NCBI GenBank assembly: GCA_019429305.1 | Contig: JAHYIR010000021.1 | Coordinates: forward strand, 1-37,176 | DNA: 37,176 bases | Source of the DNA: Candidatus Cloacimonadota bacterium | GTDB taxonomy: Bacteria; Cloacimonadota; Cloacimonadia; Cloacimonadales; JAJBBL01 | Direction: 5' to 3' | Part shown: positions 997 through 24,325 of the stretch, in pieces | Position numbering within the stretch: the first letter of the stretch is position 1 | How the letters are laid out: every line of letters starts with the position of its first letter | The notes under the pieces: model-generated | The model's database searches: none | What the model saw: the letters and a program-made list of their open reading frames with translations, nothing else | Told to the model about the DNA's origin: nothing | Translations under genes and position numbers: made by a program

Positions 997-1401
997 ATGT
1001 ATATATTTTTACTGATTATTCATGTGATAATCTCGGTTGCATTAGTAATGATTATTCTTGCTCAATCGAGTAAAGGCGGTGCTCTGGACGGATTAGTCGG
1101 AGGAACAGCCAGTACAATGTTGGGAGCACATGGTGCTTCTGCATTTTTAAGTAAATGGACCAAAATTTTAGGTGCTGTTTGGGTAATATCATCCTTAGTT
1201 TTAGCTATGAATGTAGGAGCTATGACTAGCCAAAGAAGAGGAAGAGCTCTGCAGCAAATACAAGAGGAGGCACCTGCTCATGTACCACCCGCTACTGACT
1301 ACGGTACACCTGAAGAAGGGCATTTACCCCCTGTAGCTCCGGAAGAAGGTACTACTCAAGCACAGCCAGCACCGGAAACTGTTCCGGCACCTACTGAATA
1401 A
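997..1401 (+). CDS. secG: SecG, preprotein translocase subunit
   Basis: SecG is the small inner-membrane partner of SecYE that eases SecA-driven protein export. The 134-residue product has two membrane segments (about residues 1-22 and 50-71) joined by the family loop SSKGGALDGLVGG. A Pro/Glu-rich tail of about 50 residues follows. The ATG at 997 is preferred over the GTG at 988, because AGGAG (984-988) then sits 8 nt upstream while the GTG would overlap it. A TTGACA at 932-937 upstream could be a -35 box, but no convincing -10 lies at normal spacing. The stop codon is only 6 nt before a tRNA-Leu, so the two are almost certainly one transcript ending at the hairpin at 1506-1534. Confidence 0.95.
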   Translation: MYIFLLIIHVIISVALVMIILAQSSKGGALDGLVGGTASTMLGAHGASAFLSKWTKILGAVWVISSLVLAMNVGAMTSQRRGRALQQIQEEAPAHVPPATDYGTPEEGHLPPVAPEEGTTQAQPAPETVPAPTE

Positions 1402-1407
1402 CCTATC

Positions 1408-1496
1408 GCAGAAATGGTGGAATTGGCAGACACGCAAGACTAAGGATCTTGTGCCCAAAACTGGGTGTGCGGGTTCAAATCCCGCTTTCTGCACCA
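1408..1496 (+). tRNA. tRNA-Leu, anticodon AAG
   Basis: An 89-nt class II tRNA with encoded CCA. Acceptor strands GCAGAAA (1408-1414) and TTTCTGC (1486-1492) pair fully. The anticodon stem is CAAGA (1435-1439) with TCTTG (1447-1451), closing the 7-nt loop CTAAGGA, so positions 34-36 read AAG (1442-1444) with G at 37. A long variable arm (CCCA/TGGG) and a GCGGG/CCCGC T stem complete a leucine tRNA. AAG would read CUU, and also CUC if A34 becomes inosine. The gene lies 6 nt after secG, the place where E. coli carries leuU, whose anticodon is GAG. Confidence 0.95.
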
Positions 1497-1505
1497 TATA
1501 ATTGA

Positions 1506-1534
1506 GCCATTGTTAATAAACAATGGCTTTTTTT
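1506..1534 (+). terminator. intrinsic terminator after secG-tRNA-Leu
   Basis: A perfect 9-bp stem, GCCATTGTT (1506-1514) with AACAATGGC (1519-1527), encloses the loop AATA. Seven T residues follow directly. It ends the secG-tRNA transcript. Confidence 0.93.
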
Positions 1535-1711
1535 ATTCACTATTCATCTCATTAATTTAACAACAAATATCGTCTAACTCTTTAGTAAAGATTTATATGT
1601 CTTTTATGCTCCCAGACACTACTCTATAAGATAAAAACATATTGACATCTAAACGGCTGCGAGACTCTATATATCCAATTTAATGAAACTCATAAGTGTT
1701 GGAGAACTATA

Positions 1712-20131: not shown

Positions 20132-22984
20132 ATGAAAGAAACTATTGTTATCAAAGGCGCTGCAGAACACAATTTGAAGGATATTGACCTTGTTATTCCC
20201 CGTAACAAGCTAATAGTCTTTACCGGTGTTTCCGGTTCAGGAAAGTCATCTCTGGCTTTCGATACACTCTATGCTGAAGGACAAAGACGTTATGTTGAAT
20301 CATTATCTGCTTATGCCCGGCAGTTTTTAGAGCAGATGGAGAAACCAAAGGTTGACTATATAGAGGGTCTCTCTCCGGCTATTTCCATAGAGCAGAAAGC
20401 AGCCAGTAAAAATCCCCGTTCCACTGTCGGCACAGTTACAGAAATATATGATTATTTAAGGGTTCTCTTTGCTCGTATCGGGATTCAGCATTGCTATCAA
20501 TGTGGTAGAGAGATCTCATCTCAGACAGTAGATCAAATGGTAGAAAAGATCATGACTCTCCCTGATAAGACAAAACTCTTGATCTTAGCTCCTGTTATCC
20601 AAAACCGCAAAGGTGAACATAAAGAAGAGTTGGATAAAATAAGGCAGGAAGGATTTGTCAGAGTCATTATAAATGGCAAGATGCGGGAATTATCTGAGGA
20701 GATCAATCTCGACAAAAAAAGCAAACATAACATTGATATAGTAATTGATCGTCTAATTATTAAAGAGGGTGTCGAAACAAGACTGACCGATTCATTAGAA
20801 ACTGCTCTGAGAGTAGCTGATGGTTATATCAAGATTAGAAATGCCGATACAGATGAAACGGAGATCATGTCCGAAACTAACGCCTGTAATGTTTGCGGGA
20901 TCAGCTTTGCTGAATTAACTCCTCAGCATTTTTCTTTTAACAGTCCGTTGGGTATGTGCCCTTCCTGCCATGGGCTCGGTACTACTCTCGAATTTGATCC
21001 TGATCTGATTGTTCACAGACCGGAACTGTCAATTATGGAAGGAGCTGTCGCCCCTTGGGGTAAATTAGAAGATAAAAAACACTCTTGGAATTTACGTATT
21101 TTGGTCAATCTTGCTCAATCTTATAACTTTTCACTGCAAACTCCATGGGTCAAGTTATCTCCGGAAATCAAAGATATCTTGCTATATGGCTCAAAGGGAA
21201 AGCGGATAAAGACCATCTGGGAAAGCCGACACGGACACGGTGAGTACATGGTTAAATTCGAGGGTATTATCCCCACAATGAAACGCCGTATGCATGAAAC
21301 CTCTTCGGAAGGAATGCGACGTTGGTACCTACAGTTCATCTCTGATAAGCCGTGTGAAGATTGTCAGGGTAATAAGTTGCGTAAAGAGACACAATCGGTC
21401 TATATTGGCGAAGAAACTATCGTCGCCTTATCTCATAAAACTATTTCGGGATTGAAATCTTTCTTTGAAGAACTCAAGCTTGACGGCAACAGAAAACTGA
21501 TCGCAGAAGAACTACTCAAGGAGATCGGTAATCGTCTTACATTCCTTCTCAATGTCGGTCTTCATTATCTTACACTCGACCGTCGTGCTCCCTCATTATC
21601 GGGTGGTGAATCTCAAAGGATTAGGTTAGCCAGTCAGATAGGTAGCGGACTTGTAGGAGTGATGTATATTCTGGACGAACCGAGTATTGGGCTACATCAA
21701 AGAGATAACCATCGTCTTACTGAGATGTTGTTAAGATTAAGAGATATTGGTAACACTGTATTCGTTGTCGAACATGATCGAGATATGATGCTGGCTGCTG
21801 ACAGAATCTATGACTTTGGTCCGCGAGCCGGTATTTATGGTGGTCAGATCATCGCTGAAGGAAATCATCAAGAGATCATGATGAACCAAAAATCTCTGAC
21901 AGGTAAATATCTCACCGGTGAGTTATCTATACCAATACCCAAGAAGAGAATACCTCCCGATAACCGTGCAATATTGATTAAGGGTGCTCGTCAGAATAAT
22001 TTGAAAAATATCGATATTGAGATCCCAATAGGGATATTCACCTGCGTAACGGGAGTTTCGGGCTCAGGAAAAAGTTCTTTGATCAATCAGTTACTCCATC
22101 CGGCTTTGGCAAACCGTCTTAATCGTGCTAATCTGAGAGAAGGCGTGTGTTCAGAAATAACGGGTTACGATGAGTTAGATAATGTTATTGCTATAGATCA
22201 ACAACCTATTGGTCGTACTCCACGTTCTAATCCTGCTACTTATACAAAAACCTTTGATCCTATAAGAAAGCTCTTTGCCTCTCTCCCCTCTGCTAAAACA
22301 AGAGGTTATAAAGAGGGAAGGTTCTCCTTTAATGTCAAAGGGGGCAGGTGTGAAGCATGTGAAGGCGCCGGAGTAAAACAGATCTCAATGCATTTTCTAC
22401 CTGATATCTATGTTACTTGTGAGACCTGCAAAGGTAAAAGATACAACAACGAAACATTGAATATTCGTTATAAGGGCTATAATATTGCCGATGTTCTCGA
22501 TATGGATATCCAAGAAGCATATAAACTCTTTGAAGCTATCCCGATCATTAAACAAAAGCTGCAGACCTTGATCGATGTTGGATTAGATTATATGAAGTTA
22601 GGACAACCCTCAACTACACTTTCAGGCGGTGAAGCACAAAGAATCAAACTCTCTCGTGAACTTAGCAAAACCAGCACAGGAAAAACCCTCTATATCCTTG
22701 ATGAACCTACTACCGGTCTCCATTTTGATGATATCAATAAACTTATGAAAGTCCTCTTTCGGCTGGCTGCCATGGGTAACACTATTGTCGTCATTGAGCA
22801 TAATCTTGATGTTATCAAGTGTGCCGATCATATCATTGATTTAGGTCCCGAAGGTGGAGACGAAGGTGGTTATGTAGTAGCTACAGGTACACCCGAAAAA
22901 GTAGCTCGATCAAAAAAATCGTATACCGGACAGTTCCTGAAAGATTATCTTAAAGTCTCGCCACAAAAGAAAAGATCAGTTTAA
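20132..22984 (+). CDS. uvrA: excinuclease ABC subunit A
   Basis: A full-length 950-residue UvrA, the damage-sensing ATPase of nucleotide excision repair. Two ABC modules are present. The first Walker A is GVSGSGKS (32-39), and a second GVSGSGKSS lies in the C-terminal half. The signatures are LSGGESQRIRLASQIG and LSGGEAQRIKLSREL, each followed by an ILDEP Walker B. Zinc modules include CNVCG with CPSCHGLG, and CEACEGAG with CETCKGKR. A TTGACA at 20070-20075 is a candidate -35. The ribosome site is weak. The last 9 bp overlap the convergent erythromycin-esterase-like gene. Confidence 0.98.
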   Translation: MKETIVIKGAAEHNLKDIDLVIPRNKLIVFTGVSGSGKSSLAFDTLYAEGQRRYVESLSAYARQFLEQMEKPKVDYIEGLSPAISIEQKAASKNPRSTVGTVTEIYDYLRVLFARIGIQHCYQCGREISSQTVDQMVEKIMTLPDKTKLLILAPVIQNRKGEHKEELDKIRQEGFVRVIINGKMRELSEEINLDKKSKHNIDIVIDRLIIKEGVETRLTDSLETALRVADGYIKIRNADTDETEIMSETNACNVCGISFAELTPQHFSFNSPLGMCPSCHGLGTTLEFDPDLIVHRPELSIMEGAVAPWGKLEDKKHSWNLRILVNLAQSYNFSLQTPWVKLSPEIKDILLYGSKGKRIKTIWESRHGHGEYMVKFEGIIPTMKRRMHETSSEGMRRWYLQFISDKPCEDCQGNKLRKETQSVYIGEETIVALSHKTISGLKSFFEELKLDGNRKLIAEELLKEIGNRLTFLLNVGLHYLTLDRRAPSLSGGESQRIRLASQIGSGLVGVMYILDEPSIGLHQRDNHRLTEMLLRLRDIGNTVFVVEHDRDMMLAADRIYDFGPRAGIYGGQIIAEGNHQEIMMNQKSLTGKYLTGELSIPIPKKRIPPDNRAILIKGARQNNLKNIDIEIPIGIFTCVTGVSGSGKSSLINQLLHPALANRLNRANLREGVCSEITGYDELDNVIAIDQQPIGRTPRSNPATYTKTFDPIRKLFASLPSAKTRGYKEGRFSFNVKGGRCEACEGAGVKQISMHFLPDIYVTCETCKGKRYNNETLNIRYKGYNIADVLDMDIQEAYKLFEAIPIIKQKLQTLIDVGLDYMKLGQPSTTLSGGEAQRIKLSRELSKTSTGKTLYILDEPTTGLHFDDINKLMKVLFRLAAMGNTIVVIEHNLDVIKCADHIIDLGPEGGDEGGYVVATGTPEKVARSKKSYTGQFLKDYLKVSPQKKRSV

Positions 22985-24325
22985 TGGATTAAGTGGATTT
23001 GTCTCTTCAATAAATATAAAGGCATCATACCGCTCAGGTAATACTGTCGGAACATAATTACCTGCTTCCTGACGCGGATTATAGACTACTCCAATAGCTC
23101 TATGATCGATATGCCTGTTTAAAACTGGATGCGATCTATCATCATCATCGAAAAAGATAACAAAAACGTTATGAGTAACCTCTCGTAATAAATCTTCCCA
23201 ACTGTCGTCTCTTGCTTCTGGAATGGTCATTGTTTGCCTTGCAGATTCCCAGCTCGAACCGGCTAATACTCTTCCTCGATAGCAGCCAAACCCAACAATA
23301 TAAACTGCTTCTCTTCCCAGTTTTTCACGAGCCAGTTGACTAATGTTATAGCTTCCCTGTCTATGCATCGGAGTAGCTCTGGCATCACCAATATGAGTAT
23401 TATGTGCCCAAACAATCCCTTTGGAACCTTCTCCGTAATGATCCAATAATCTATAAACTGTATCTTCCATGTGGAAGACACGGTAATTCCAGCTCTCCGG
23501 TCCTCTCCCTATAGCAGAACGGTAATGTTTTTCAGCATTTTTGACAATATAGGCATTCTGCTTGGCATTGAAAAAAGATTCACGGCATTCGGCAGTTAAA
23601 TCATCTCTATTATTGAGAAGAAAATCGACTACATCGGTTACTTGCTGAGAACAGTTTTCTATACCGCTAAAGATGGCCCGGGCATAATTACCCCCATCGT
23701 AACCGTAGGGAGTAAAACAGTCATATAAAGATGCTATCTCCTGATAATCTTCGTTTCCCTGATTTCGTAGATAATTTCTGACTTCTGAGATAGACTCTTC
23801 TTTGCTGTAAACATCCATCCCGTAGATACCGATCCTATCTTCTTCGGGTCTGTTACTATTAAACTCTTTGAGCCATTCTATCAAGTCTACCATCTCTTCA
23901 TTTGCCCACATCCATTGAGGCCAGCGGTTAAAATGGTCTCTGAGAAGCTCTCTGGATGACTTATCTTGATGTTCATAACCTTTGACATATCTATTTATTT
24001 GATAAAATGATGGCCAATCACCTTCCACAACTATGAAATCAAAATCCTGTTCTTCTATTAATCGGCGACTTATCTTTGCTCTCCAAAGATAGTATTCAGA
24101 AGTACCGTGAGTTGACTCTCCCAATAACACCAGACGTTTATTTACACTGCCAGTAATGATTTGATCGAGAGAAGTCTCATCAATCAAAGGAATACTCTTC
24201 TCATTAAGATATTCGACTATACTTTCTACGGTCCCTTCTGCCCGAGTAGAAGCAAAGAGATTGCTTTGAGAGTTAAAGTAAAACAGAGCAGTAAATAGCA
24301 ATAATGCAGATAATATTTTCTTCAT
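22976..24325 (-). CDS. exported erythromycin-esterase-family protein
   Basis: A 449-residue protein of the EreA/EreB superfamily. Residues 1-25 form a signal peptide. Conserved blocks are LLGESTHGTSEYY (Glu70, His73), VVEGDWPS (Glu101), IYGMDVYS and VWAHNTHIGDA (His308, His311), which carry the catalytic metal-free His/Glu set. Most relatives of unknown function share this core, so macrolide esterase activity should not be assumed. Export to the periplasm is predicted, unlike the cytosolic resistance enzymes. It is third in tandem behind the LiaF-like and receiver-PAS genes, 77 bp after the former. Confidence 0.85.
   Translation of the reverse strand: MKKILSALLLFTALFYFNSQSNLFASTRAEGTVESIVEYLNEKSIPLIDETSLDQIITGSVNKRLVLLGESTHGTSEYYLWRAKISRRLIEEQDFDFIVVEGDWPSFYQINRYVKGYEHQDKSSRELLRDHFNRWPQWMWANEEMVDLIEWLKEFNSNRPEEDRIGIYGMDVYSKEESISEVRNYLRNQGNEDYQEIASLYDCFTPYGYDGGNYARAIFSGIENCSQQVTDVVDFLLNNRDDLTAECRESFFNAKQNAYIVKNAEKHYRSAIGRGPESWNYRVFHMEDTVYRLLDHYGEGSKGIVWAHNTHIGDARATPMHRQGSYNISQLAREKLGREAVYIVGFGCYRGRVLAGSSWESARQTMTIPEARDDSWEDLLREVTHNVFVIFFDDDDRSHPVLNRHIDHRAIGVVYNPRQEAGNYVPTVLPERYDAFIFIEETNPLNPLN

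Follow-up and report, generated by a model that had tools for sequence, protein, structure and literature searches.

Wobble inosine in bacterial transfer RNAs (tRNAs) is usually described as restricted to tRNA-Arg(ACG), with tRNA-Leu a rare extra in the Lactobacillales. In the Streptococcaceae and Lactobacillaceae of that order, tRNA-Leu(AAG) replaces tRNA-Leu(GAG), the two do not co-occur and the deaminase TadA makes inosine at position 34 (I34); specifically, in vitro deamination of Streptococcus tRNA-Leu(AAG) by TadA from S. pneumoniae has been shown, as has I34 on this tRNA in tRNA-seq data from S. mutans (PMC13249217). The same source places almost all bacterial Leu(AAG) genes in Bacilli. 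Oenococcus oeni has Leu(AAG) besides Arg(ACG) as an A34 tRNA and carries I34 on it (PMC8072771), so that I34 on bacterial Leu(AAG), already measured in two genera, is not unprecedented. Here we describe a tRNA-Leu(AAG) gene of the distant phylum Cloacimonadota which lies directly behind secG, as does the tRNA-Leu(GAG) gene leuU in E. coli. It was found in the window, by which we mean the whole stretch of 37,176 nucleotides analysed (contig JAHYIR010000021.1 of a Candidatus Cloacimonadota bacterium, assembly GCA_019429305.1). In our reading, a functional tRNA-Leu(AAG) has replaced Leu(GAG) in place, TadA would turn it into the IAG form that serves as sole dedicated decoder of CUU and CUC, and the same replacement was repeated elsewhere, usually with C32 and A38. 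We give this reading a probability of roughly 0.86.

The tRNA-Leu(AAG) of the window is a real and intact gene. Both ARAGORN and the Rfam tRNA model (57.0 bits, E 6.9e-10) called a tRNA with anticodon AAG (coordinates in Table 1), and reading of the sequence agreed with them: the anticodon is held by a full 5-bp stem in a loop that reads C32 U33 A34 A35 G36 G37 A38, and the terminal CCA is encoded in the genome. An earlier annotation made from the DNA letters, referred to below as the sequence-only reading, had described this stem and G37 in the same way. It had also linked the gene to secG and pointed to the secG-leuU(GAG) adjacency of E. coli; both points were borne out. The gap between the secG stop and the tRNA is 6 bp, the secG open reading frame (ORF) matches NCBIfam TIGR00810 (69.1 bits against a cut-off of 30.85), with an alternative GTG start possible at position 988, and the two E. 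coli genes lie 14 bp apart. Neighbour, order, strand and short gap are thus the same in both organisms, whereas leuU differs in having G34, U32/U38 and a CTACC/GGTAG stem.

The window corresponds to contig C21 of a Cloacimonadota metagenome-assembled genome (MAG) of 2.39 Mb in 52 contigs that is 99.92% complete. The tRNA genes were collected by running the Rfam tRNA model over the whole assembly and re-reading the matches with ARAGORN, which gave 42 genes with a leucine set of AAG, UAG, CAG, UAA and CAA. No Leu(GAG) gene was found in the assembled genome by this procedure, so the second intact copy that would have spoken against the sequence-only reading is absent from the assembly. The set falls slightly short of completeness: genes for Ile(GAU) and Ala(UGC), which would be expected, are missing from the assembly and presumably sit in unassembled rRNA operons. 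Leu(AAG) and Arg(ACG) are the only A34 tRNAs, a point of difference from O. oeni, and tRNA-Leu(AAG) is the sole dedicated reader of CUU and CUC in the genome. These two codons account for 17.0% and 13.5%, respectively, of 46,336 leucine codons counted over 1.42 Mb of ORFs; CUC is used freely (6,251 codons), and at 30% of all leucine codons the pair places a heavy decoding load on this tRNA. The genome also carries tRNA-Arg(UCG) (G000:C1:352716-352789) besides Arg(ACG), with no Arg(CCG) among the tRNA genes found; CGG is presumably read by the Arg(UCG) tRNA.

Examination of related genomes showed that the arrangement is fixed across the phylum. In the order of the window genome, secG is followed by a same-strand Leu(AAG) at 29 of 30 loci, the thirtieth being cut by a contig end in a genome that has an AAG-pattern match on another contig; in the sister order this was the case at all 12 loci, and relatives with GAG at the secG locus, which would have undermined the sequence-only reading, were therefore not seen at these loci. 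The spacing in relatives is mostly 4-23 bp, and the pair also occurs in records of Candidatus Cloacimonadota and Candidatus Cloacimonas sp. SDB. A sequence pattern for the AAG gene matched 82 of 125 genomes of the phylum, all from the window's own order and including 58 of its 62 high-quality genomes. The remaining four high-quality genomes matched neither the AAG nor the GAG pattern; two of them also lack a secG match, which suggests an assembly gap. The same pattern search gave no match in the sister order, but absence of AAG there was rejected in view of its 12 secG-flanked copies; the pattern misses them because their D arm differs (TGGCGG...GACGC).

Some further features of these loci were recorded. 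In the sister order, tRNA-Arg(ACG) usually comes next after the secG-linked Leu(AAG) (directly so in L133, L135, L136, L138-L143, L182 and L196), and these adjoining genes, both expected to be TadA substrates, may share a transcript. The secG-linked tRNA-Leu(AAG) is duplicated in tandem or near-tandem at L047, L065, L238 and L382. Lastly, the D arm of one family's Leu(CAG) tRNAs reads GGTATAC in place of GGTAGAC (L439, L440, L442).

The pattern for Leu(GAG), which would miss unusual D arms and was complemented by a pattern-free check of the window's own genome, matched one of the 125 genomes, and one more when mismatches were allowed (G009 and G107). The G009 copy lies on a 4.6-kb contig (C42), has no encoded CCA, is followed by repeated partial tRNA-end sequences and bears an anticodon arm often seen in the Fibrobacter-MAG group (L132, L462). 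That of G107 lies on a 6.9-kb contig (C104) with a nicotinamidase-like ORF (L145, L463) and a 906-amino-acid ORF that reads like a polynucleotide kinase/phosphatase-ligase, and this contig looks viral or foreign. Since both contigs are short and odd and both genomes have Leu(AAG) elsewhere, contamination or a mobile element is the likely origin of these copies. Save for these two genomes, replacement of Leu(GAG) without co-occurrence holds across the phylum in these pattern searches.

We then considered genomes outside the phylum. A scan of genome contigs with the Cloacimonadota anticodon arm and D arm returned at least 80 loci; the matches listed include Clostridia, Lactobacillales genera, Anaerococcus, Synergistaceae, Sumerlaeota, Planctomycetota, Verrucomicrobiota, Hydrogenedentes and Fibrobacter, and ARAGORN called AAG in nearly all of them. 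As the 17-nt arm was part of the query, its presence in these loci is no independent evidence. The acceptor, variable and T arms of the AAG tRNAs vary by phylum. None of the 32 genomes of other groups found by the AAG arm gave a GAG match; all had AAG alone. An open pattern was applied to two groups. It matched 102 of 139 genomes of the Planctomycetota group, 10 with AAG and the remainder with GAG; in the Fibrobacter-MAG group it found GAG in most genomes and AAG sporadically, and the 30 loci taken there, all adjoining secG, comprise 26 GAG and 4 AAG genes. Outside Cloacimonadota the secG-linked tRNA thus appears to be mostly Leu(GAG), with sporadic AAG. Because the same secG locus holds GAG in other groups, with a different anticodon at the same place, the AAG gene appears to be an in-place replacement that is old in Cloacimonadota and was repeated in other phyla, including Planctomycetota. 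The sequence-only reading had proposed a G34-to-A change at the secG-linked locus; that part is supported. The change is no local oddity, given that the state is fixed phylum-wide and is found again in many phyla, and positions 32 and 38 take part in the switch besides base 34.

The change at position 34 is accompanied by changes at these two loop positions. In the Planctomycetota group, A38 is present in all 10 A34 tRNAs and C32 in nine of them, while neither base occurs in 36 G34 tRNAs chosen for variety, which have U32 or A32 with G38, U38 or C38 (Fisher p 2e-10 for A38 and 9e-9 for C32, kinship being ignored); the remaining G34 tRNAs were read by eye and no A38 was seen. As these p-values ignore kinship, the number of different stems, among six distinct A34 arms and 26 distinct G34 arms, speaks more strongly for repeated switching than they do. 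One genome of this group (G365) has a GAG tRNA with the CAAGA/TCTTG stem of the window, the two arms differing only at positions 32, 34 and 38. In the Fibrobacter-MAG group A38 was found in 5/6 A34 arms and 0/26 G34 arms, and C32 is less strict (2/6 A34 arms). Overall, nearly every AAG tRNA carries C32 and A38, matching tRNA-Arg(ACG), the canonical TadA substrate. The A34 leucine loop is identical to the Arg(ACG) loop of the same genome except at base 35 (CTAAGGA against CTACGGA), and the two tRNAs share the inner stem pairs G30-C40 and A31-U39; they differ in the outer stem and in the remainder of the molecule, tRNA-Leu being class II with a long variable arm.

A single TadA ORF was identified in the genome (C1:279887-280333, 153 amino acids). 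It has the HAE and PCTMC (PCxxC) motifs, adjoins tRNA-Ser(CGA) and counts the TadA proteins of E. coli and S. aureus among its nearest solved relatives. In the structure of ADAT2/3 bound to tRNA, an RNA-binding loop conserved between TadA and ADAT3 touches the nucleobase of A38 (PMC9643335). Furthermore, the Streptococcus Leu(AAG) loci examined have a 17-nt anticodon arm identical to that of the window. The presence of TadA, the I34 of Streptococcus and Oenococcus and the A38 contact together lead us to propose an IAG anticodon that reads CUU and CUC. We propose that secG and tRNA-Leu(AAG) would be transcribed together and the transcript processed, after which the cell's single TadA would convert A34 to inosine, as it does on tRNA-Arg(ACG), to give a tRNA-Leu(IAG) that would read CUU and CUC and could read CUA. 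The replacement of G34 by A34, if this is the direction of the switch, would be older than both sampled Cloacimonadota orders, and replacements that arose independently in other phyla would mostly have brought in C32 and A38, making the leucine loop Arg(ACG)-like. The widening of TadA use to leucine CUU/CUC codons suggested by the sequence-only reading is likewise the best-supported interpretation.

Other explanations of the gene were weighed against this reading. An artefact, be it a sequencing error, a pseudogene or a mis-called anticodon, is extremely improbable: a base error at 1442, which the sequence-only reading had allowed for, was rejected because orthologues in at least 82 genomes have the same base, a pseudogene was rejected by conservation and by the intact cloverleaf of the orthologues, and the genome has no other dedicated CUU/CUC tRNA. 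It is also unlikely that the AAG tRNA was acquired horizontally, from a donor group such as Bacillota, and took the place of the GAG gene with no anticodon change in the resident copy. The 17-nt arm is indeed the same in many phyla, though the scan pattern required it; but the AAG gene occupies the old secG locus, which bears GAG in other groups, its acceptor, variable and T arms are phylum-specific, and A34 occurs on several stems, with the GAG tRNA of G365 separated from the window arm by the three loop positions alone. Slightly less probable again, in our view, is that A34 stays unmodified, with Leu(AAG) reading CUU and CUC being read through A34 wobble or by Leu(UAG). Two reports lend this some support, stating that B. 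subtilis is viable without TadA (PMC10454642) and that A34 is believed to form a modest pair with C (PMC11066159); against it stand the encoded TadA, the likeness of the loop to that of Arg(ACG), the abundance of CUC codons, and the fact that Leu(AAG) is deaminated both in Oenococcus and in Streptococcus, whose loci examined here have this arm (PMC13249217, PMC8072771).

The cause of the C32/A38 change is less clear-cut. These bases may accompany A34 for the sake of the ribosome, a weaker wobble pair needing another 32-38 pair, and not for TadA, an explanation we regard as a serious possibility though short of even odds. Leu(UAG) tRNAs of the phylum, with their weak wobble base, mostly have C32/A38 or U32/A38 while Leu(CAG) has U32, which makes ribosome tuning of the 32-38 pair also a natural cause; on the other side is the contact of the TadA/ADAT3-conserved loop with A38 (PMC9643335), and the two causes are not exclusive. 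That C32/A38 may tune ribosome binding instead counts against the TadA-centred reading, as do three further points. The I34 of Cloacimonadota is something we infer by analogy; the TadA ORF scores 140 bits against a curated model cut-off of 150, a value below which most well-known control genomes also fall; and a comparison of ribosomal and elongation-factor genes with the rest showed no significant shift in use of CUY (CUU and CUC) codons (p 0.57), the 50 CUY codons of the translation genes being few, with no S10 operon on the contigs used, a distant best match for tufA and no GAG-bearing relative in the phylum to set beside it.

Compared with the Lactobacillales, in which Streptococcus and Lactobacillus Leu(AAG) loci have the same 17-nt arm, the Cloacimonadota gene stands out by its fixation in a distant phylum and its linkage to secG; secG was not detected beside Leu(AAG) in the Lactobacillales loci examined with the one profile used. 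Codon recoding has been described for the Lactobacillales (PMC13249217), whereas the Cloacimonadota case is known here from tRNA genes and bulk codon counts. The many Leu(AAG) genes found outside Bacilli in our scans contrast with the distribution given in that study. Phylum-wide fixation, recurrence in other phyla, partly at the secG locus, and co-change of positions 32, 34 and 38 look new, none being described in the literature searched, and no paper on Cloacimonas with inosine and tRNA was found in that search. More generally, we consider it reasonably probable that in the secG-linked bacterial tRNA-Leu G34 gave way to A34 in place on many occasions, with A34 now fixed in whole clades such as Cloacimonadota and C32/A38 accompanying the change, so that tRNA-Leu would be a widespread second natural TadA substrate with the 32-34-38 triad as signature of the switch. 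The Cloacimonadota case widens the range of a decoding switch known until now chiefly from lactic acid bacteria. A phylum with fixed Leu(AAG) and scattered switches, several at the same locus, offers natural replicates for studying the spread of tRNA editing to further tRNAs, a process that also underlies growth of the eukaryotic inosine tRNA set, and the 32/34/38 co-change is directly testable by a single enzyme assay.

Table 1 Coordinates of the tRNA-Leu(AAG) gene, its parts and its neighbours in the window
Feature	Position	Strand	Basis
tRNA-Leu(AAG), class II, long variable arm, encoded CCA	1408..1496	+	ARAGORN; Rfam RF00005
Anticodon arm CAAGA-CTAAGGA-TCTTG, 17 nt	1435..1451	+	sequence reading
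Anticodon stem, strand CAAGA	1435..1439		sequence reading
Anticodon loop	1440..1446		sequence reading
Anticodon stem, strand TCTTG	1447..1451		sequence reading
C32, co-changes with A34 (nearly all Leu(GAG) have U32)	1440..1440	+	arm comparison
Anticodon AAG, A34 at 1442, predicted TadA substrate	1442..1444	+	ARAGORN, Rfam, sequence reading
A38, co-changes with A34 (Leu(GAG) have G38 or U38)	1446..1446	+	arm comparison
Encoded CCA	1494..1496		
secG, preprotein translocase subunit SecG, upstream partner of the conserved secG-tRNA-Leu pair	997..1401	+	ORF, NCBIfam
Terminator-like hairpin and T run just 3' of tRNA-Leu(AAG)	1504..1536	+	consensus scan only

The position of the terminator-like hairpin suggests that the secG-tRNA unit ends there. 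Elsewhere in the window, a 449-amino-acid ORF on the minus strand (22976-24325) has a signal-peptide-like start and, by eye, resembles erythromycin-esterase-like hydrolases.
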